A stretch of 64,000 bases of DNA from Paramecium tetraurelia (Eukaryota > Ciliophora > Oligohymenophorea > Peniculida > Parameciidae), in assembly GCF_000165425.1 (NCBI RefSeq), contig NW_001799031.1:1153-65152 (forward strand), read 5' to 3'. The notes under the pieces were generated by a model, which made no database searches, was not told the origin of the DNA, and was given only the letters and a program-made list of their open reading frames with translations. How positions within the stretch are numbered: position 1 is the stretch's first letter; every line of letters begins with the position of its first letter. Below are positions 3,837-63,344 of this stretch, piece after piece. Both the position numbers and the translations under genes were made by a program.

Positions 3837-6009
3837 ATGGATTAAACATAGGAATTTATTCTTCGTTCTTCTATGACTCGTTCAAAAAAGGAGTTTTTGG
3901 ATCATATTAAAGAAAGAAAAATCTATTTCCCCCCCAATTTAGAATCCAGACTTTTGCAATGGAATTGCTACCCATTAATAAATTTTAATTTAGAGGAATT
4001 AGAAGTTAGTTTTGGAGTTTTCTTCTTTTAGATTTTAAAACTATCTTAAAATTAGACAGTGAGGGATGCATTTTAAGAATAACTAAAATTTTAGTTAAAA
4101 GATTTGCAGCAAGAAAATTTCAAGAATATTTGTCTTTGGGTATTTTAGAGATAATCATTAACCCCTTTTCCTCAAAGTAATGAGTTCAAAAGACTTGGTG
4201 ATTGCTTTAAAGAAAGTTTTATTTATGAAAAGCATATTTCAGATAAGCCTCCTTCCTATTATAAAAGTTAAAATGGCACTTAAGTTTCCGAAATAAGTGA
4301 ATAAGAAGTAAAATATCGAATTGTATTATATACACATAAAGATGAAAAAGGAGAAACACGTTATATCATATTTTCAACAAACAATGATATTAGAAGATTG
4401 TTTCCAATATAAAATTAAATTTTTATTCCAAAAAATAACTTAAATTAAAATCAATAACCTTAACCTTCCTTGAATTTCAATTCTAATAACCAAAAATTTG
4501 TATTAACAATTTAAGAATAAACTAATATCTAAGGGGAGTTAAAGGGAACAAATATTTAACCTTCAAATGGGTAACCAAAATAGTCATCGATAAAGAACAG
4601 CCCTCTTTTTCCAAATGGGGTTATCTAATAATAATCACAATAATAATAATAATAATAATAACAACAACACTAGTAATAGTAATTCTAATAATACTAACCA
4701 TAATAATACTAACCATAATAATACTAACCATATTAATACTAACCATATTAATACTAATAATAATAACCGTAATAATACTAATACTAATAACCATAATAAT
4801 AATAATAATTTTAGCAATAATAGAAATTATAAACAAATTATACTAATAGTAATACTAATGCTAATATTTTAACCAATAGTTTTATTAATTTTAATTATAT
4901 TAATGCAAATACTAATAACATGAATCTTTAATAAAACGGAAATGTATTATTTTCTTAAATGAAGGTAATACCAAAATTAAATAATGGAATTTTCGCATCA
5001 ACAGAAACAATATTATAGTTTCAAGATAAATTAAAAACTCCAATTTTTCATTCATCTTCACTTCCTTGTAATTCAAGTTAATAGAACGTATCAGAACAAC
5101 AAGAGACAGAAGAAATAGATGTGCTTTCTACATAACAGATTAATCAACTTTCATAAATTAAAAAAGATAATGAGGTGCCAATACAATCCAGAATTTAGAC
5201 TAACTGCTAGCTGAAGCGATAAGAATCTGAAGAATGCTAAATATGCACTATGAATTATTAATAAGATTCAAATGAAGCCTTAAAGACTCCTTGCTGCTTT
5301 CGGATAGTTCATGCTGATTGCTATAAACAAAGTTTATAATAAAAGGCAATATAACATATGAATTTTGACCTAATCACTTGTTACTCTTGTATGCAATCAT
5401 TAAAAGGCTATAATGAATTTTTAAAAACAAATATTTCTATTTCACTTTATGGTGAAATTGTAAAAAGGAAATTATTAGCAGAAATTCCTCTCAAATGTTG
5501 TAAATGTTAACTGCCAATTAAAGCTAGCAAAGAGATTCTAAGTAAATAGGTAAAGCTAGAATGTTTATAATGCAATACGATGCTTTGTAGTTTGTGTCGT
5601 CAAGAATATCATGGCGAAAACTAATATGTAAATGTTATAATTATAAAAGAATTAATCCTGTCCAAGTCTATTAATCGATATTTAAAAGGCATTTTTGAAT
5701 ATGCCAATTCTTGTTTGTCCTTTTTGTCTGCTACTTCAAACAAAGGATGATAGATGCAATCATGTGAAATGTTTCAGTTGCTAGAAAGAATTATGTTCAG
5801 CTTGTTCTGTGGATCGAATTCCAATATTGGCTCATGGAAATCATTATCACAGAGAAGGATGTCCTGACTATAAGCAATGGGAACTCAATGATAAAGTAGT
5901 TAAAAAAAAAGAATTCGATAAAAAAAAGTGTTAAAGATGTTAGGAATCAGGTAAACCTTGTGAATATCCAATGAGTTTGTAAGAGTACAAGAAATAAATA
6001 CAGTTTTGA
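3837..6009 (+). CDS. RBR-type E3 ubiquitin ligase with long Gln tract
   Basis: A RING-IBR-RING2 protein that would pass ubiquitin through a RING2 cysteine. It has about 716 residues: an N-terminal region of unknown fold, a Gln/Tyr/Pro tract (residues about 262-332), RING1 near 465-520 (CQIC ... CYSC with a central HADC), an IBR near 545-595 (CCKC, CLQC, CSLC then His) and RING2 from about 618 (CPFC ... CNHVKC ... CSAC). The C-terminal part is out of frame unless a 22-nt intron at 5628-5649 is removed. That intron begins GTAAAT but ends AAAG, a pattern seen in several other genes here; a one-base indel is the alternative. The likely RING2 catalytic Cys lies in the CSAC group. Substrates are unknown. 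Confidence 0.82.
4627..4830 (+). repeat. TAA-rich tandem repeat encoding poly-Gln/QQYQP
   Basis: Inside the RBR gene a run of TAA trinucleotides is followed by five copies of a 15-bp unit (TAATAATACTAACCA three times, then TATTAATACTAACCA twice). In frame with the gene this reads Q-rich blocks and QQYQP/YQYQP units. The tract is coding in the ciliate code and would be wall-to-wall stops in the standard code. Confidence 0.85.
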
Positions 6010-21933: not shown

Positions 21934-23752
21934 ATGCACAATATCACCGTTGCCATTCGAGTCAAACCAGTCTAATAAACTTTCAAAACCATTATTGTTA
22001 ATGGGTCCACGGTCACTCTGCTTGATCCAGAATTAGAATTCAATAACCCTGTCGATGTAAATTGACATTTCTATATTATATTTTACATCCTAAAGATCCT
22101 GAAAAAGAATAGAATTAAAGATGCATCTTATGAGTTTGACCTTGTCTTTGATTAGCAAGCCGATCAAAAGGAAGTCTATGAAAAATCAGCAGAGCCCCTT
22201 CTGGACGATCTCATTTCAGGATAAAATGTAACTATTTTTGCATATGGAGCAACAGGAAGCGGCAAAACTCACACGTATCATTATTATCCCTAATCTCTTC
22301 TAGCATGATGGGAAGCCAGAATCAATAAGGCATTATACCAAGAGCATTGAATGATTTGTTTGTTAGATTGTCAAAAGAATAAGCCGCTCAAGTATCAACA
22401 TTCCTAATCCCTAGGCCTCACTCACCTTCTTAGAAATATATAATGAAACTATCCGAGATCTCTTGACTGGGAAGTTATTGGATTTGAGAGAAGATGGCAA
22501 CAAAGGATTAGTAGTTGTGAATTTATTTAAAGCTCCTGTCCCCACTCTCAATGATATAAACCAATACATCAAGTATGGTAACAGCAGAAGAGCAAAGGAA
22601 CCTACAGGTGCTAATGAAAACTCGACAAGATCTCACACGGTTTTGCAATTGATGCTCAAGCAATGCACCTTCACCTTTGTTGATTTGGCTGGTTCTGAAA
22701 GAGCTTCCCAAACTACTAACAAAGGACAAAGAATGGTTGAGGGAGCTATGATAAATCGATCACTCTTAGTTCTTGGTAATTGCATCAAGGCGTTATTCTC
22801 AAAGGAATAATTTGTTCCATTTAGAGGCAGCAAGTTAACTAGACTATTAAAGGATGCACTCCAAGGCAATTCTAAAACTGTCATGATTGCCAATGTTGCT
22901 CCCAACAATTATGAAGATTCATTCAATACACTCCTTTATGCTCACAGGACTAGGAATATTGATCCAACTCCAAATAATTTCTAAGAGATGATTGTTTAAT
23001 TAAGGGAGGAGAATGAAGACATCAAAAAGACGCTCAAGAAGTAAAATAGTTAATCCAAGATGCAGTTATAAATTGAATAGCAATTCAAAGAGCAATAGAG
23101 ATAAGAGAAGATGGAAAAATAATAATAATAACAATAAATTTAATAGATCCAGCAGTAATCAATTTAATAGCAATAAGCAGAAAAATAAGCATATGATGAA
23201 GAACCAAATTAAATCAATTATTTTAAAGCAATTTGCATAAGAATCAGAGTTAATTAAATAATTGTTTAAGTTAGAGGATGCTTTGATGCAAACTCATCTA
23301 GACATTAGTTGAATATTAAAAATAGTAGAGTGTACAATTTCAATAGAAGACTGAGGATCTAATTACCAAATGCACTGATTCTATAAATAATACAGAAAAT
23401 GAGTAATTTGAAATTGCTATGAAGTATAAAACAATCTTACAATAAAGGAGAAAAATATATGATGTATTACTTATTTGATAATTAAATATAGTAATGCATG
23501 CAAAGTCAATTTTAATCAGTCAAGGATGAATTTAGAAAATAAGTTCAAAATATAGAGAAGATGAAAGGTTTATAGAGTGAGAAAAGAGAAGAAGTAATGA
23601 AAAAGTTTAAAGAGTTGGAAATTGAACATCTCAAAAAGATTTCTAATTAAAAAAATGGGAATCAACCTTAAATTGATGAGGAAACATTGAAAGAAATTAA
23701 GAAAAATAGATTACAAAGTTTAAACAAATAAATTAAGGATGGAAAATTGTGA
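21934..23752 (+). CDS. Kinesin motor protein, kinesin-8/KIF18-19-like
   Basis: Microtubule motor with an N-terminal head of about 330 residues. The P-loop [10 protein letters not shown], switch I NENSTRSH and switch II DLAGSER are all present, and [15 protein letters not shown] before the P-loop resembles kinesin-8. Four introns are inferred: 22057-22095 (39 nt, ending AAAG and removing an in-frame TGA), then 29, 23 and 28 nt ending TAG. After the head come a Gln-rich stretch and coiled coils. Two places in the tail (near 23221, a TTTT run, and near 23303) need one base skipped to stay in frame, so the tail model is provisional. About 565 residues in total. The subfamily is inferred from a few residues only. 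Confidence 0.88.
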
Positions 23753-23986: not shown

Positions 23987-25405
23987 ATGGGAGTATTAGG
24001 ATAGGGGAAGTTCCTTAATGGTTAGTTGAAATAAAAGTAATTTTCTATCCTATTATACTCTAAATCTAAAAAAAGTTATTGTTAAAGTAATAATAGCATA
24101 TTAAATTTATAAAGAAAAAATATCTAAATACTTTCAACTAAATAATCGCAGCATAACTTGAGATAACAGATCCTTTATAATTCAAATCTTTGAATTAGGA
24201 CTCATAGAGATTCCATTGAGGTAAACTTGAATTTACTGTTATTCCCACTTCTACAAAGATGATCAGGGAGGTTTTGTAATCTTGCGATTATACTATGAAA
24301 GCAATTTAATTTTATGCAGATGATTGAACTTTAGTCTAAAAAGATGAATAACATATAGGAATTTGATACTACAACATTAATAGTTACAGCTAAGATGATA
24401 TAATCCCTGATTGACTATTTGCAAGTATGCTTATTATATGGAGATCTTAAGATAACACTTAAAGAATTTACATTATAGGAATAGAAGTAAATCTTATCTA
24501 GTGGAAAGCTATTCAGTATATTGAATAAAGGCAGGAAAGATAACACACGAACTAATCTAAAATAATTTTCTATTGATCCTAAAGGAACCTTGGGGATAAT
24601 AGTTTGAATAAGATTCTAAAGTAACTAAACAAATATGTTTAGCACTCCTGTTCCTGAGTAAAGCAAGCATTCTTTTTGGAGTAGCAGGATCCTGATAAAG
24701 TAGTAAATTTATGGAGATCAACAAAACAATGATAACAATTTGGTACATTTAATGGAGGATTGTGTAAGGAAGGAAGTTTGCCATTTAAACTTTTAGTTGA
24801 AATCTTCATTTGAATTAAAGCTGATAAATATAATGTTTTTGATTGAAAATTGCTAATAGTAGATTGAATTGGAATATTACATTGAACGTTTATTGAAACA
24901 CAAAGAAGAGTGAATGTTTAATCAGTATGAATAGGAGGTACAGACAAAGTGGAAAAGGAGAGAGAGTAGACCATAAAAATTACATAAGAGGAGACATGTT
25001 TTGAAATCTGAATCTAAGGTTAGTGAATATTAGGATACCTGATAAATTTGAAAAGGTTCATAGAGTGGGTTTATTAGAAGGCCTTATAATGCATCTTATG
25101 GTTATTTATGCGATGGGAGTGTACATTACAAAATTGTTGTTAAAAGTGAAAGTGAACACTAGATGAATTAGGAACAGAACAGGGCAGAGGAGAAGACCTC
25201 TGTGCTTAAAAAGAATTTGAATTGTTTGAGATATGCTGAACAAGAAGTAGAGTAGTTGAAACGTAATTATTTGCAAGTTTAGATGGGGAATGAAACCTTT
25301 GGGTATTTGCATGAGTTGAAGAGATTGTTTGATTGTGGAATCATTGTTAACCCTGAAAAAGTTGTTGTGATTGATATATAATAATTATTCAGTATTCAGT
25401 ATTGA
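23987..25405 (+). pseudogene. Coiled-coil gene, apparently disrupted
   Basis: A long stretch of coding-like sequence on one strand, rich in Gln, Glu and Lys (for example MIREVLQSCDYTMKAIQF, FELKLINIMFLIEN and NLNCLRYAEQEVEQLK), ends at TGA 25403-25405. It cannot be read as one protein: there are in-frame TGAs (near 24196 and 24912), a one-base shift in a TTTT run near 24311, and other frame changes. A 45-nt segment ending TAG at about 25021-25065 could be an unusually long intron. Either the locus is a pseudogene or the sequence carries several errors. No family is recognised. Confidence 0.45.
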
Positions 25406-39144: not shown

Positions 39145-41727
39145 ATGGAATCTTGCTAAAAAACACACCATCAAAACAACAGAATTATTGGCATTTGTCT
39201 AAGATGCAAGAACAATTACTTGAGTTGCAAGTCTTGCTTTGCCGAATTCCATTATTAGCATAACGAAGACTTTCTATTAATTGACAACATCCTCTTAGTT
39301 GTAGATTAAGTACTATAGAAGATAAGTCAAGCAAATGATTAATTGAGATCCCAAAAATTATTCGAATTTGGTACCTTTATCAAATCAAAATATTCTCAAC
39401 TTAAAGAGATTGTCACTAAATTCATGAATTAAAACAATTAATTAAATCTATTACTTGTTCAGATGTTTAACAACAACATTCAAGATAATACACTAAATGA
39501 AATCTTGTGCCAGTTAATTGTGCAGGCTTAGAGCTTCAGTGAATAGGAATTATAGAATATTAACAAAATTTTTATTGAATCATTTCAATAGGTGTCATTG
39601 GACAATTAGATTAGAGAAATGCTAGATAGATGTACATTTATATAAATTTATAAATAAGGTTTCCTCCTATGCTCAATTCAAAAATATCCAGAAGCACATA
39701 AGTTGTCCTAAGCATTGATAAAATTAACAAGTAAAAAATAATTTCTCAAAACATAACTTTCATAATTAAATAACATCCCTAATTAGGAAATTTGGAGTTT
39801 AGAATGCTTATTCGGAAGAAACCTCTACCTTTTAAAAAAATATAATCTGAGTATTGATTACTTCTAGAAATTATTGTAATAAGATCAGAATGAACACATC
39901 CTCGCAGAAAGTTATATATATCTCAGTCTTAACTTAATTTAGACCAAAAAATATGCTGAAGCTTTGAATGAGCTTGCCATATATCGTACTTTGAACCCTC
40001 AAAATATCCTCATTAATTTTTTTGAAGGTTCTCATGTAATTAATATTTTAGGATTTGCTTTAGAAAGAATGAATGAGATACACGATGCTATTTCGAAATA
40101 TTAGGAATTGGCTCTGACAACTAATGATTTATTGTACAATTTAGCTTATGGTAGAAACTGATAAAATATAATTAGGAAAAATCTTACTTTAAGCAGAGTT
40201 TTACGATTAAGCCGAGGAAATATTTGAAAGAATCATTTAAAGTAATAATCAAAATGAGATTGCCTAAATTTACAAATGTATGTGTGCATTTTATAAAGGT
40301 TTAACCCTATTAATAGGAAAGAAAGTAGAAAAGGCTCTGAAACAATCAGAGAAATTGATTGATACCAAGCAAGAGAGTGTTTATGGATATGTATTGAAAG
40401 GTACAAAATTAGAGATTTTAATTTAATAGGAATTATTTTAAAGATATAAAAAAAGAATGAGGAAGTTATTACTATAAGCAATTAATTGAATTTATCTTTT
40501 CCTGATAACAGATGGAATTATTTATTTTAAAGTTGCTATTATGCATTATGATAGGCATTATCTTAATTTAAGATTCCGATTTTTGGGAAGCAAATGGATA
40601 TTTATAAAAAATAAAAGATGATAAATATATCAAAGAAAATCTAAAAAGGATTTAGGTGCGCAGCTTACTGCAACTGAAAAAAGTCCCAGAAGCTTTTGGA
40701 ATTCTAAATGAAATATAATTTTGCCAAGGTTATGATAATATGTTAAATGATACCTTTTATATGTTAAAAAAAATTGGCATGACTTTTCCCGGAGCCATTT
40801 AATTTCACAGATTATATGAAAAAAATAATAAGGATTCTGAAGCTATGCATTTTGAAGGTTTCTCATTGATTTAACATCAGGATAATGCTATTATAACGAC
40901 CTAAATTACGATAAAGCCTTATAATGTTTCGATAAAGCAATAGATGCAAATCCAAAATCGGCAAAATCATTCTATTACAAGGGTATACTATTATTTATAC
41001 GGAAGGCCAAATATTATTTAGAACATTCTAATTTGAATAAGCATTAGAATGTTACTTATAGGCTGGTAAAATAAGCTCAAAATACAATAATCACTATATA
41101 AGCTTCCACATAGGAAATTTATATTTACTTTTGTTTAAATTTGAGAAAGCCTAGGAAGCCTATAATCTTTCGATTGAACAAGATAGTTAAATAGAGGCTG
41201 GAGCTGAAAGGAGATAGGTTACTTTAGCTATGAAGGCGATAATCCATTGGTATAATAAAGATATTTAGAGTGCCCGTGACTTAGTAGATACAAATTTGTA
41301 GGTGTCTACTTTTATGTTAAGTAAGTAATTTTGAAAAGGAAATTTAGGCAGGCTTTATTAGGAATTAAAATATGATTACTAGGCTTAACATAATCTAACT
41401 CTATTTAAGTAAAACAATGTTGATGGATATAATTTTCAAAAATAAAATTATGATCATGGATAAATGTTCATAAAATATATGGAAAAGAATTCATAATAGT
41501 TTGAATAATTGGATGATAGTAAATTTTGATTCATATTCTATTTAATAGGGGAATATGAAATAATGAAATACGCTGCTTGGGTTTTAGATTACTATGCCTA
41601 CGACATTGAGTTTGGATATAAAGATTGGGATTATTCTAAAATCTTTTATTTAACAATTTAAAATGAATAAAATGAAAAGATTACTAGATAATAATAAAGG
41701 CGTCTAGAAAAATATCCAATAATATGA
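39145..41727 (+). CDS. B-box zinc-finger/TPR protein, frame partly broken
   Basis: The first 45 residues carry a B-box-like zinc motif (C-x3-H, CLRC, CKSC, then HYQH). Behind it are helical repeats and clear tetratricopeptide repeats such as ALQCFDKAIDANPKSAK and ALECYLQAGKI. Introns of 25 nt (40150-40174), 23 nt (GTTTC...CAG, near 40857), 27 nt (near 41321) and 30 nt (near 41519) fit. Between about 40400 and 41030, however, the frame changes more often than introns explain (near 40400-40550 and 41000), so the middle is either damaged or carries indel errors. The stop is TGA 41725-41727. I treat it as one gene because the repeat character continues throughout. Confidence 0.62.
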
Positions 41728-44664: not shown

Positions 44665-46130
44665 TCATAATTTCTATTTAGGTATAAACTCAAAAGGAGG
44701 AGGTTTGGCTTGCTTAACTTATTGAGATTTAATTAAAGGAGTCTTAACATTGGCCAATTACTACAGTACTTCCTAGCTGACCTGGAAACTGAAGGGCAAA
44801 TTCAAAGGTTGTTATGTTTGTTTCTTTTTATCTTCTTCCTCTTTAATCTTCGCATTTAATAAATCCAATTTTGAAGCATACTTCTTTTTAACCAATTCTA
44901 ATTCTTCATGCATCTATTACTCAATCTGACCCTTAAGTCTCTTTCTCTCATCCAAACTCATGTTCTAGATCTACGCTTCTAAACTCAATTCTTTGGTGTG
45001 TTCAACCTTCTTCTTTTGATGATCACTTATTTATTAGTCCATTTTATTCCACTTCAAGAAATCAGGTTCCTCCTTAGCTTGAATCATCTAATCCTTAATG
45101 ACAAGAGTCCCATAATCACCATGAGTCATCTCATCATCGACCTCTTCACAATTGGAAATAATAGTCAATGGAACCTAATCCTTAATTGATTACTGACTAT
45201 TCTCATTCTTCTGCAATTTGGTTAATCTTGCTTCTTCTAATTTTTTTGAATATTGCTCCACTAGAGTTAGTAACTTTTTTTAATGTTGTTTTCCCTGTTT
45301 AATAAAGGTGTATTGCAATAATTGTTATGCAGTTGGTCTCTCATTGACTTCAACTTTTAAACAGGCTTTAACAAATTAATTGAATTCCTTCGACCACAAT
45401 TCAGGTTTGGTAAGTCCTATGGGCGGATTATTCTTGATGGCAAACATGGCTCTGACTGGATGAATATGAGAATATGGTGGAGCACCTTCTGCCAATTCGA
45501 TTGCTGTGACTCCAAGGGACCAAATGTCAGTCAATTAATTGTAACGAGACTTGCTAATCACTTCAGGACTCATCCAAAATGGAGTTCCTATAAATGTCCC
45601 CTTCATTTTAACATGAATAGTCTACTTTATCTGCACATGAATAAGTCAATTAAGCAGCAACTCCAAAATCTGCCAATTTCACTTAACCCTTGTGATCCAA
45701 CAAAATGTTCCCTGCCTTTATATCTCTATGGATTTTCTTGTTTGAATGTAGGTATTCAATCCCCAACAATGTCGAATACATAATCGCACTGATCTCTTCC
45801 TGAGTCAACCCTCGCTCCATCACTTCAATTAGACCCAACACAGAACCCGCTTCACAATATTCCATTATTAACCAGAGATTGCTCTCCTTGTAATAAGATC
45901 CTAAAAAAGACACAATGTTCGGATGTTAACAATCCTTATTAGAGAAATCTTACTTTCAAAATCTTTATTTCCTACACCAAATTGTCAACCTCATCAACCA
46001 TTGGAATTATTTTGATTGCCACTATTTATCCATCTTCCTTGTGTCTCCCCTTGTACACCGTTGCATAGGCTCCTTCTCCTATTAGCTCCAGCAACTCGAA
46101 CTCCTCTTCCGGATCGTGATTCCAATACAT
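44665..46130 (-). CDS. STE20/GCK-type (MST-like) kinase
   Basis: The 473-residue Ser/Thr kinase has [11 protein letters not shown], the ATP lysine in [22 protein letters not shown] and the STE20 signature [10 protein letters not shown]. After the kinase domain the tail is coiled coil ([18 protein letters not shown]) with no SARAH domain that I can see. Two introns are needed: 45935-45953 (19 nt) and 45601-45625 (25 nt). Both end in AAG, and both sit inside motifs so conserved (ILKDCQHPNIV and [11 protein letters not shown]) that the splice positions are hardly in doubt. The family regulates growth, polarity and the cytoskeleton; the pathway here is unknown. Confidence 0.92.
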
Positions 46131-47961: not shown

Positions 47962-49545
47962 ATGGATATTAATACAGAGGAACCTGAGATAGGTAAATAC
48001 TATTGATTATTTTGCAGGAAAAAAAGTGTGTGTTGAGCCTGTAAATCCGCCACTACGATTACCTACAAAAGTTGATATAAGCGTGGTACGATATTATAAT
48101 ATTGAAGATTGATCACGAAACACCTAAAAAGTATTTCAAATTAAAAACTCTCTAAAATTTGTTAATGTGGTTATTTTGCAAGAATCAAGTGAACCCACTA
48201 TGGCTGACTGTGACTGTAAAATTTTGAATCAATAAAATAGAATAAGCATTTAATAAGATGTGGAGTAGGTGATGAACTTGAATTTCGGGTTAAATTTGGA
48301 GACGTCTAAATATTTATCTTCCTTTAGTCAGAAGGACAAGATTGTGTATTTCAAAGAATTGGAGTAGGGGAAGGGAAACTTTTGGCAGTCACTATTTTAC
48401 ACGAGGTATCACGAGGACCCAGTATTCCAAACATAAAAGCAATAATAACAGGATCCATAGAGTGGTTTACAAGAGGAACAAATTTACAATCAATATAGGA
48501 ATTTCATCTTAAACAAGGAATAACTTAAATTGAACTTTTACCCAATTGATGAAAATATCTATCACGATTATGTGAAATTGGATGGGGAAGTGTAGACTAA
48601 GAGGATGAACATATTTGCAATGGATTGCGAGATGGTGCAGACAGAAAATAAATTAGAACTTGCGAGAGTGTCGATAGTAGATTACAATTACAAAGTTGTG
48701 CTTGATGTATTGGTCAAACCATAAACAAAGATCTTGGATTACAACACTAAGTATTCAAAGAATAAATTAATCCTGTAGATATAGCGGCATAACTGAGGAT
48801 ATGTTGAGTAATGTTACTGTTACTTTGGCAGAGGCATAAAAGATGGTGAAATCTATTTTGGATGAAGATTCAATTTTGATTGGTCATTCTTTGGAGAATG
48901 ATTTGAATGCTTTGTAGATAATTCATCATAAATGTGTGGATACGAGTGTGCTTTACATGACAGAAAGTAACAGAAAGTTATCATTAAAAAACCTTGCATA
49001 TAAATATTTAAATTTATCTATTTAAAAGGTAAATGAATCTATTGAAATTATAGGACACTCACGATTCGAATGAGGATGCCAAAATCGCATTGTCCTTGGC
49101 AAAGCTAAGAATTGAAATTTTGGATCACTTTCCAAGCACTTTGTTTACTCAATAATAAACTGCTACTCCGGATGTCTTAATTTAGCTTAAGAAGTTGGGA
49201 GGCTTACATCTAGTGGAATTGAAATCGGAAGTAGAATTCCTGTTAAAATACGACGTTGGTTTTGAGGATGTCGAATAGATCACCGATGAAAAAAGTAATT
49301 AAACCTCCAAAATCAAATAGAAATGTAGAGGATGGCTGAATTGCTTCGATAGAGGAATGCTAATGCTGTGAATCCCAAATTAATCTTTGCTCAGATACAC
49401 AACAACTTCGAGGGTTTCGAATCGTCTTTTTAGAACATGTATAATTTGGCCCCTTCTTAGACAAGTATTTTGTTACATTAAATTTTAAGTATTTATACTG
49501 TCAATTGGAGGAGAATAGTAATAATTTCTGTTAATTACCAAATGA
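47962..49545 (+). CDS. DEDDh 3'-5' RNA exonuclease, REXO/Rex1-like
   Basis: Exonuclease of the REX family, which trims rRNA, tRNA or other RNA 3' ends. The DEDDh core is clear: AMDCEMVQT (Asp and Glu), KYSGITEDML, GHSLENDLNALQ (Asp) and HDSNEDAKIAL (His and Asp). Introns: 25 nt near 47994 (CAG), 28 nt near 48752, 25 nt near 49028, 26 nt near 49294 and 25 nt at 49465-49489, which ends AAG and leads to a short tail (TIFILSIGGEQQQ). One problem remains: an in-frame TGA near 48110 separates the first 40 residues from the rest, and no short intron removes it cleanly. The start could instead be the Met at about 48199. Confidence 0.82.
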
Positions 49546-50536: not shown

Positions 50537-51517
50537 ATGGCCGAAACGAAAGAGGAAGTTAAAGCATAACCCAAAGTATATGCTTATGCCGATCTAATCG
50601 AATTCGAGAATAAGCAAGCCTTTAGTTCAATAGGGAAGATGCCACTATCAAACAAATAGACACTGCCGAGTTTTAGTTTTGGCTCAGCTGAACGTGCAAA
50701 TTAAGCGAAACTTTATCACAACAAAGAACTTGCGAGAATAGATTTTGCAGGTAAGAGAATTATGTATAAGATCAAAGGCAAGGCTAGTCCTGGACCTGTG
50801 TACAATGTAAGAGGAGGAGATCATTTTTATTACACTTAAGATGCGAATACTAAATTCGGAACTGATGCGCGTAATACTTTGGGCACAGGAGCGAAGTTTG
50901 ATTACTATCAAAGGAAGGACGTGGATGTAAACTTGAAGTTAAATAGTTATAGTTTGAACCTCAAGAAGCAGATTTGATTCGAAAACCCAAATATCCAAAC
51001 GTTAAGATTGGATTGGAATCCAGAGTATGCTTCTGATATATTAAGTTCCCTCCCGAAAAAAGATTAAAGGGAACTCCTGGTCCTCAATACGACCCAGCGA
51101 TTAAGCCTGAGGTGCCCACTCCTGCTCAATATTCATTTGGATATAGGAGGGACATCCCAGGGGCATCAGCCTTGGCTCCCACTTGTTCAACCCCAGTGAT
51201 CGTGGGGCCAGGAGCGTACTTGTAGAAGCCTCCTGCAAATACAAGTAATTTGGAGGATGCTCCTCATTGGACTTTACCTAAGGGCCCCAAGTTAGGGAAG
51301 ATCTTCGAAGGGTGGGATAAGAATCAGACCTACGACACAAAACAGTAATGTTAATGAGATAAAAAGGATTGCTGTAGGAGTGCAAGTGAATTCTAAGAAA
51401 AAGTCGTATCCAGCATTCAGTGTGGGGAAGTCTACTAGGGAAGCGAAGGTTGGACACTTCACGTAATTAATGGTCAAGGTTCCATCGAAGGTACACATAC
51501 CCCATCCAAAAATATGA
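50537..51517 (+). CDS. SHIPPO/ODF3-type ciliary protein
   Basis: A 303-residue protein with several Pro-Gly-Pro repeats of the SHIPPO type: KASPGPVYNV, KGTPGPQYDP, TPAQYSFGY and VIVGPGAYLQKP. These proteins coat or fill sperm-tail and ciliary microtubules. Introns are 50926-50951 (26 nt, TAG), 51025-51045 (21 nt, AAG) and 51345-51366 (22 nt, AAG). The last two are well supported because they remove TGAs and join repeat units cleanly. The C-terminus (SYPAFSVGKSTREA ... PHPKI) is another half-repeat. Which paralogue it is cannot be told. Confidence 0.87.
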
Positions 51518-60200: not shown

Positions 60201-63200
60201 TTAGAGGAACAAAATGTCTATTATTCTATAGATGTTTAAAATATAACAGTATGGCAGTGACGATTGGTCACATTGCATCCAAAACCTTTAAATCTTATAT
60301 ATACTTGACGTTTTTGATGTTTATTGTGATATTTTTGTATGCACTGGTCGGAATGGAAGTATATGCAGGAGAGTTTGATTAAAATGATGTCTTAGGATAA
60401 TTACATTCATATAACAATGTTCTGATTTCATTTATGACTGTATTTAATATCATGACAAATGATGATTGGTATGGAGTGTTCGTATTGGGTACTGGAATAG
60501 ATGAGACATTCGGAATATTGTATTCATACTCTATGGTAATTATACTTAATTATTTAACATATGGATTAGTATTAGCCATTTTATTGGACGGTTTTAGCAA
60601 GTATTTAGATAGATAAATATTCTCAGAAATAGAAGATACAGAACAATCTAAAATGCAGACTTCTAATACTGAGAAATAAGACACTTAAAATACATAGTAA
60701 TTAACTGACATCAATCAGACTGTTCAAACTGATTTGATTAAGAATCGCAAAAGTAAAAAGAAGACTGCTTTGATTCAGCATCTAATAAATTCAATCAGAT
60801 AAATCAATTAGAAAATATTGGATGCATCTCCTGAACTTTATGATGGAATCTAATGTGAACAATCTTTATTCTTCTTCAACAAATCCAATCATTTCAGAAT
60901 GATATGTATGATAATTGCCAGATCTAGATTGTACAAATTAATTAACGATACCTCTCTTACATCATCAATAATCATTTTCATCATCCAGACTTATAATGAC
61001 TATGAGGAAAACAAAGAAATTTATCCACAGAAAGTGCTGTTTTACCTCAACATCATCTTAGCAATAGAATATATCATCAATGTAATAGCCAAGGGATTAT
61101 TCCTGGATCCAGGTTCGCATTTCAATTCCATCTGGCAGATCGTGGATGTATTTTACATTATTTCCTTCTTCTTTTAATATGAGAAAGATTACTATGTAAA
61201 ACCAATTTTTTAGATTCTACTTTACTTTGGATATTTTAGACCATTCAATCTTTTGAATAGAATCAAATTCTTGAATGTTTTAAGTTCAGCACTCTATCAA
61301 TCTTTGGTTGATATATTAAACGTATTGTTAACTCTCTTTTCAGTCTGGATCATATTTGGAGTGTATGGGATCATATTATATGAAGGACAATTTGGATTTT
61401 GTGAAGATAAGATGCAATTCAGAGTCAATTATGAGGACTGTATTCAACAAAATAGAACATGGATCAATTTCAAACATAACTTTGACAATATCACAATGGC
61501 TATTCCAACATTATTTACAGTCTCCACTTTTGATGGTTGGGGTGAAATGCTCCAAATTGCTGAAAACAGTGACAATCGAAATGTTGGACCTGTGCCATTT
61601 AATAGTTATATACACACCTATGTCTTTTTCATTACGTTTTGCTTTATTGGATCTATGTTTTTCTTGAGTTTGTTCACAGGTGTCTTATTTTCTAACTTGA
61701 AGGCTAATCAAAGGAAAATTGAGTAGGGGGAATTCAATTAGAATCAGAAGGAATTTATGGAGATATCGGAAATTATCACCAAAGATATTCCTGTATTTTC
61801 TACACCTCCTGACAATGTCATTAGAAGATTAGCATCAATCATCATGAATAATTCCATAATGCAAACTTTCTTTTTGCTCATCCTTTTATTGGATGTGGTT
61901 AACAATATCATTTTCCATTTTGGTATGAATTTGGAATATCTTGAAATTATTAATTACATCCATCATGTATTTTCAGTATTCTTCACAATCTGGAGTATGC
62001 TGCAATACTTGGCTTTGGGATTGTTTAGATTTTTTGATAATTATTGGAGACAATTCCTTTTCATCCTGAATCTCATTGCAGTCATAGATCTGGCTGTAGA
62101 TCTGAAATACAATTGGGTAGAAATCTATTATTTTTCGAGTCCTTTGACTCAATATTATAGACTCTATAGATTGTGTTTTGCTTTGAGGAGCCTTAGATTG
62201 ATCCTCATTTTTTAGGGTTTGATCAACATTCAGAGACTCATGAGAGTTATGGTTTATGCACTCCCATTTTTAGGCAAAATATTCTTCATTCTAATAGACA
62301 CAATGTTAGTCTTTGCCTTATTTGGATGTCAACTGTATGGATAGATCGATTCAGGGTAGGTTATGGATGATCAAATCAATTTTCATAACATTGCTTAAGC
62401 TATGCTGACTCTATTTAAATGTGCATCAGGTGATGATTGGAGAACCATAATGACTGACACCATGCATCATAATCCTAATTGTTCTACAGATTCAACTTAT
62501 TGTGGTTCCACTTATAGTTAAATTTACTTTTTTCTGTTTATGTTGTTGTCCAATTACGTCTTTTTAAATTTGTTTGTCTTGGGATTGATCGAATAATTTG
62601 AGTCATTTTTTTAGGTTTAAAATTCAATTATCCAAACTTATGTAGAAAATGAAGATAGAATAAAAACGATATGGTGCAAGTATTATTATTATATTTTATA
62701 AGATATTCTCCGGAAACTCAAGGCAAGGCTATGCATTATAAGTTTCTTTGTAGATTCCTATTGGATCTTGGATCTCCTTTGGGAAGAGGAAAGGAGGAGA
62801 ATCTTTGGGATGCTGCCAAACAAGCCTCTGCGTTCAAATTGAAGTGGTAAAAAATCAATTACTATTATGTAGTGATCATCATGGGTACATTCAATATAAT
62901 TAATTGATTTATGAATTGTTTAGGACATGCTTTTATAATGATGTTTTCAAGACTGGGAGTAAAAATGCCATAAAATAGATTAAATAATATAACAAGGAGA
63001 TGCAAATGAAATTAATGAATTATCGGAGGAATCTATTCATTAAGCGAGCCAATATTTGTTTAGTCGACCTAAGAACAAATTTTAACATTCTTCACGATTA
63101 CTTGAATGTTCTCATTGCTTTTAAGGCATGGGAATCCCATTCCAGAAGTCTGATCAAGAAGGTCAATAGGAGAAGCAAAGAATACACCGAAAATACTGAA

Positions 63201-63344
63201 TCAGACGAACAAATCCCGGAGGAGTATTATTATGATTCTAATTTTATGAAAGGCTTCAACAGAGTGGACATTCTTTCTTAAATGAGATAAGCATTTTCAG
63301 AGGGTCGGCTTAGATTAGTGACACCGATAGATTCCAACCAGTGA
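57298..63344 (+). CDS. Four-domain voltage-gated cation channel alpha subunit
   Basis: A very large membrane protein (about 1950 residues) with four homologous repeats of six membrane helices, like Cav/Nav/NALCN channels. Pore loops are visible in order: ITMDDWSW, MTNDDWYG, STFDGWGE and SGDDWRT. Each has Asp where calcium channels have Glu. S4 of repeat IV is Arg-rich (YRLYRLCFALRSLRL), while S4 of repeats I-III is poor in charges. Introns: 57835-57858 (24 nt), 58987-59012 (26 nt), 62680-62702 (23 nt, ending AAG) and 26 nt near 62849. The AAG intron restores the conserved C-terminal segment PETQGKAMHYKF and SPLG. A one-base inconsistency lies near 59545-59580. The frame ends at TGA 63342-63344; a shifted frame stays open to 63483, so the C-terminus is uncertain. 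Confidence 0.88.

Follow-up and report, generated by a model that had tools for sequence, protein, structure and literature searches.

The window, a stretch of 64,000 nucleotides of Paramecium tetraurelia DNA (source assembly of 69.07 Mb in 231 contigs, cited below by C numbers), contains a gene for a STE20/MST-like protein kinase with two introns that both end in AAG (Table 1). The encoded protein matched PF00069 in a Pfam scan (E 1.2e-71), and the spliced product aligned with human STK4 (PDB 6yat, 3com) over 262 residues with zero gaps, the alignment spanning both junctions. The sequence-only reading that preceded this analysis had taken the borders of these two introns to be set by homology, and this was supported both by the gapless STK4 alignment and by duplicate genes, namely older paralogs of the kinase in C36 and C214 (67-68% DNA identity).

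The same reading had listed eight segments of the window, distributed over six genes, as introns that begin with GTA and end with AAG. A direct read of the window sequence confirmed both ends in 8/8, the two STE20 segments lying on the reverse strand and the other six on the forward strand. The genetic code used was code 6, in which TGA is the sole stop. Six of the eight segments have a length that is not a multiple of three and shift the frame if kept, and the two with 3n lengths (51025-51045 and 22057-22095) contain a TGA that is in frame with the joined exons; hence, none of the eight is plain coding sequence. All have the GT 5′ end and AG 3′ end of U2-type introns, and their removal restores the interrupted reading frame, as seen in the junction frames, the frame of the exonuclease-like gene and the kinase alignment. 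Moreover, at seven of the eight the intron position is common to homologous genes, the channel intron being the exception. The segments also conform to the tiny introns of Paramecium (mostly 20-34 nt, GTA donor, TGA as the only stop), with six of them within 20-34 nt and STE20 intron 1 (19 nt) and the kinesin intron (39 nt) outside this range.

Table 1. Genes and introns of the window discussed in the text, with the 3′ end of the corresponding intron in duplicate genes.
Feature	Position	Strand	Length and 3′ end	Evidence
STE20/MST-like protein kinase gene	44665-46130	-	474 codons including stop, as called; two introns, both AAG	gene-finder call; PF00069; STK4 match
STE20 intron 1	45935-45953	-	19 nt, GTAAG...ATAAG, AAG	gene-finder call; same junction in C36 and C214 paralogs, TAG end
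STE20 intron 2	45601-45625	-	25 nt, AAG	gene-finder call; AAG in C36 and C214 paralogs
Intron of SHIPPO-labelled gene	51025-51045	+	21 nt (3n), in-frame TGA, AAG	gene-finder call; TAG in C75 and C179, CAG in C59
Intron of SHIPPO-labelled gene	51345-51366	+	22 nt, AAG	gene-finder call; AAG in C75, C59 and C179
Intron of SHIPPO-labelled gene	50927-50952	+	TAG	TAG in C75; AAG in C59 and C179
Last intron of exonuclease-like gene	49465-49489	+	25 nt, AAG	not called by gene finder; AAG in C75 counterpart; frame closes on TGA when removed
Intron of ion-channel gene	62680-62702	+	23 nt, AAG	gene-finder call; absent from 6 fetched paralogs
Intron of kinesin gene	22057-22095	+	39 nt (3n), in-frame TGA, AAG	gene-finder call; AAG in C75
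Intron of RBR/IBR-like gene	5628-5649	+	22 nt, AAG	gene-finder call; TAG in C75 counterpart
Further AAG intron call, absent from earlier list	40983-41005	+	AAG	gene-finder call; no duplicate-gene comparison
Further AAG call, GTA donor	24425-24451		AAG	gene-finder call; no duplicate-gene comparison
Further AAG call, GTA donor	25121-25146		AAG	gene-finder call; no duplicate-gene comparison
Further AAG call, GTA donor	25303-25321		AAG	gene-finder call; no duplicate-gene comparison
Further AAG call, GTA donor	39632-39658		AAG	gene-finder call; no duplicate-gene comparison
Further AAG call, GTA donor	40278-40298		AAG	gene-finder call; no duplicate-gene comparison
Further AAG call, GTA donor	48086-48107		AAG	gene-finder call; no duplicate-gene comparison
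Further AAG call, GTA donor	63224-63252		AAG	gene-finder call; no duplicate-gene comparison

At the level of the predicted proteins, the kinesin and ion-transport labels are supported by Pfam matches (PF00225, E 3.1e-95, and, for the spliced channel protein, PF00520, E 8.5e-44). The RBR-labelled protein gave an IBR match at E 2e-4, under Pfam's cut-off, and the SHIPPO-labelled protein matched no family at E 0.001 in the Pfam scan. The names exonuclease and SHIPPO are labels from the earlier reading of the sequence; judged on its translation, the spliced exonuclease-like protein presumably resembles a DEDD-type exonuclease. In this gene, removing 49465-49489 joins the frame to a TGA 17 codons further. 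A 26-nt GTA...TAG intron at 49295-49320 was overlooked by the gene finder, and without both segments the gene encodes 451 residues.

We then compared the window with its duplicates in the assembly. Parts of the window are duplicated on C75 with 87-90% DNA identity, and C59, C179, C193 and C204 align with it at 67-78%. Duplicated contigs, an assembly of this size, reading in code 6 and small introns are all features that fit Paramecium. For 7/8 AAG sites, one or more duplicate genes carry an intron at the identical junction; it ends in AAG at four of these sites and in TAG or CAG at three, and in most of the seven the intron sequence itself has diverged. AAG was present in all three copies of STE20 intron 2, and an exchange in the opposite direction was observed at 50927-50952, where the window and C75 have TAG and the two more distant copies AAG. 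In the wider comparison of the window with its duplicates, the intron was conserved in 34 comparisons and lacking in 10, and a further 39 allowed no assessment. Among the 10, STE20 intron 1 in C36 was overlooked by the intron caller, as the DNA alignment displays the intron.

Two of these sites call for separate comment. The channel intron was absent from the six paralogs that were fetched (L046-L051) from 12 non-self matches, and all six join exactly the codons that flank 62680-62702, which suggests, as far as a comparison of gene copies can tell, either that the intron was gained recently or that it survives in this copy alone. The 23-base channel insert can equally be drawn as TA...TA. The 39-nt kinesin intron is identical to that of C75 at 38/39 positions; special conservation of this intron was rejected, as identity to C75 is about 92% over the whole kinesin gene and ranges from 24/29 to 22/23 positions in the other introns called there. 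Within the 5′ exon of the window kinesin gene, at about 22000-22010, a one-base indel relative to the C75 duplicate (TTAA vs TTAAA, L038) represents a frame difference or a homopolymer error.

These comparisons bear on whether the segments might be spliced otherwise, as false intron calls or through another acceptor. In 7/8 cases the next 30 nt downstream contain further AG ends, for example a TAG located 13 nt past the end of STE20 intron 2, and decoy donors also yield AAG calls (see below). However, the duplicates use the same junction at 7/8 sites in spite of the divergence of most of the introns, use of the alternative ends would either disrupt the reading frame or delete conserved residues of the kinase, and the channel junction is joined exactly in the intronless paralogs. 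We therefore regard such alternative splicing as improbable for these segments, which would be GT-AG introns with an acceptor that reads AAG, and we judge all eight very likely to be real introns. A sequencing or assembly error, in which TAG was misread as AAG, was rejected because the AAG end is found again in copies of an intron on separate contigs; no point in its support was found, the share of AAG fits the published non-TAG share given below (excerpts of PMC9612004), and we give this explanation practically no weight.

To count AAG ends, we used a purpose-written gene finder for code 6 with no preference for any base at -3, applied to 264 kb, namely the window and 100 kb each of C36 and C214 (the latter including 255 N). 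With the splice-site preference limited to GT and AG, the first version made 356 calls (donor GTA 246; acceptor TAG 243, AAG 72) and recovered 5/8 segments; although neither feature was built in, intron lengths peaked at 22, 23, 25 and 26 nt and were seldom 3n. A second version, in which the third donor base was weighted according to published values, called 354 introns (TAG 247, AAG 69, GAG 20 and CAG 18) and 7/8 segments, 49465-49489 being the one missed by both versions. In the window alone it called 82 introns (TAG 52, AAG 18, GAG 5 and CAG 7). Fifteen of the 18 AAG calls have a GTA donor and seven had been listed before, so that the earlier list of AAG introns was incomplete. The 18/82 in the window did not differ from a comparison count of 9/54 (p 0.23).

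We also estimated how many of these calls could be spurious. When only GTA was allowed as donor, 247 introns were called (TAG 176, AAG 46, CAG 15 and GAG 10), whereas nine non-GT decoy donors, each permitted beside GTA, gave 6-16 AAG calls apiece (on average 9.3 AAG and 11.4 TAG calls). Decoy acceptors permitted beside AG received 14-32 calls vs 220-236 for AG. About 15-20% of the single AAG calls may therefore be false, but the class as such is not noise, as the decoy donors remain well below the 46 AAG calls of GTA. After subtraction of the decoys, either raw or scaled by density, AAG made up 16.7-17.3% and TAG 73.7-74.8% of the introns, and the AAG share was about 16-20% in every count made. 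In a run without any constraint on the 3′ end, the finder failed to locate ends with single-base precision: among 285 calls (TAG 59, AAG 9, AAT 17, AAA 10) TAG alone stood out and AAG did not. Hence, support for the AAG ends comes from the AG rule together with the duplicate genes and not from the coding signal alone.

An independent count was obtained from C36 and C214, which are duplicates of each other. In 36 gene pairs with 90 introns examined, 54 introns were at the same position, 28 were untestable and 8 were absent. The paired ends of the 54 shared introns were TAG/TAG 39, AAG/AAG 7, CAG/CAG 2, CAG/TAG 2, TAG/AAG 1, AAG/TAG 1, AAG/GAG 1 and GAG/GAG 1. AAG thus accounted for 17/108 ends, and 5/54 pairs differed at -3, where the base was identical in 49/54 vs 33, 31 and 32 of 54 at -4, -5 and -6. 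In the same introns (L009-L028), position -7 was identical in 44/54 vs 96/162 at -4 to -6 (p 0.003, uncorrected), perhaps reflecting a branch-site constraint.

The interior of the introns consists of about 38% A, 45% T, 9% C and 8% G, and we expressed the use of each base at -3 relative to this composition. In the duplicate-confirmed set the enrichment was 1.70 for T, 0.61 for C, 0.41 for A and 0.36 for G, and after decoy correction 1.65-1.67, 0.62-0.63, 0.43-0.45 and 0.37-0.42, respectively (uncorrected: T 1.61, C 0.57, G 0.57, A 0.48). Relative to composition, the order at -3 is thus T > C > A >= G, with T favoured about fourfold over A and the other bases tolerated, and the A-richness of the introns explains why AAG ranks second among the ends.

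The sequence-only reading had proposed that AAG introns form a notable class bearing on how the tiny introns are recognised. AAG and TAG introns showed no strong difference at -4 to -12, at +4 to +7 or in 11 short motifs; a search for a branch point or another compensating motif gave nothing clear (TAAT in 29/54 AAG vs 91/210 TAG introns), and interior AGs were not fewer in AAG introns (12/54 vs 47/210). A few uncorrected p values of 0.03-0.05 were obtained overall, among them less T at -4 in AAG introns (p 0.03); AAG introns were also shorter than TAG introns (p 0.001) and more often of 3n length (13/54 vs 27/210, p 0.054). These deviations may reflect false calls among the AAG introns or a real difference. 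A distinct intron class, recognisable by an extra motif or by a fixed identity, was therefore not supported: these comparisons gave no clear extra motif, and the ends interchange in the duplicates.

A different possibility is that AAG introns are a functional subclass with deliberately weak acceptors, in which selection would preserve A at -3 across whole-genome duplications, so that leaky splicing, with decay of the transcripts that retain the intron, tunes expression. Where at least one duplicate has A at -3, both have it in 7/10 cases, vs 27/75 for A at -4 to -6; one AAG was kept in all four copies of the intron at 51345-51366 (window, C75, C59 and C179), and excerpts of a published study report that P. 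tetraurelia introns other than GTA|TAG are more often retained (58% vs 50%, PMC9612004). However, the contrast in the keeping of A is weak and not significant (Fisher p 0.08, n 10), AAG interchanges with TAG and CAG in both directions, no clear compensating motif appeared at the positions and short motifs tried, and Saudemont et al., in the parts consulted, attribute patterns of this kind to splicing error under drift (PMC5663052). We consider such a subclass unlikely.

The available excerpts of published work on P. tetraurelia describe a similar picture. There, 69% of 94,711 introns are GTA|TAG, and across expression quartiles GTA-TAG introns make up 65.5-72.6% and GTA-nAG introns 91.8-94.9% (PMC9612004, Table 1), which implies that 22-27% of the introns have a GTA donor and a non-TAG nAG end. 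This matches our decoy-corrected counts, in which about 25-26% of GTA introns have a non-TAG end. In Saudemont et al., 69.8-77.4% of introns are GTA..TAG and the others are viewed as weaker signals shaped by mutation, drift and decay (PMC5663052), and Bondarenko and Gelfand found the termini in Paramecium and its relatives to be conserved at GT and AG only (PMC5014332). The published GT-nAG introns share with ours the tiny size (about 25 nt), a GTA donor in more than 90%, a GTA donor combined with a non-TAG nAG end in about one quarter of all introns, a deficit of 3n lengths and an in-frame TGA in some 3n introns (PMC9612004, PMC5663052). In contrast to our count of about 17%, the AAG share is not given separately in the excerpts of these two papers, nor was one for Paramecium found in the literature searched. 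The AAG introns are hence ordinary and match the published Paramecium data, and the proposal of a notable class was not borne out.

The order at -3 resembles that of other species, with U or C first, then A and then G. In excerpts of PMC11802449, human U2-type 3′ splice sites follow the order CAG > UAG > AAG > GAG, and in other eukaryotes AAG is likewise usable yet weaker than pyrimidine-AG, with G worst or near worst; in contrast to these, U stands clearly above C here and AAG is second commonest owing to the A-rich introns. Another ciliate, Nyctotherus ovalis, also has tiny GTA...TAG introns but, according to the parts of PMC2633312 consulted, nearly all of its experimentally derived introns end in TAG, the two exceptions being CAG and TGG.

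Taken together, we are confident that the AAG introns are ordinary U2-type GT-AG introns, presumably cut at the AG, in which A replaces the preferred T at -3 as a tolerated, weaker acceptor. Recognition of the acceptor would depend mainly on an AG that is suitably spaced within an intron of about 22-29 nt, and T at -3 would be a strengthening contact that is not required, with A as the weaker, tolerated state. In A+T-rich introns, mutation toward A would be frequent, which could make A the commonest substitute at -3, and under mild selection against A, AAG sites would arise, persist and revert. Position -3 would be read by the usual 3′ splice-site factors, possibly through a U2AF1-type contact or a step-2 proofreading contact.

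If AAG sites were nevertheless held by selection, for which the evidence is weak, they would offer a natural test of regulated intron retention. For the annotation of Paramecium genes, models that demand GTA...TAG would lose about one quarter of the introns, with AAG as the largest part of the loss.
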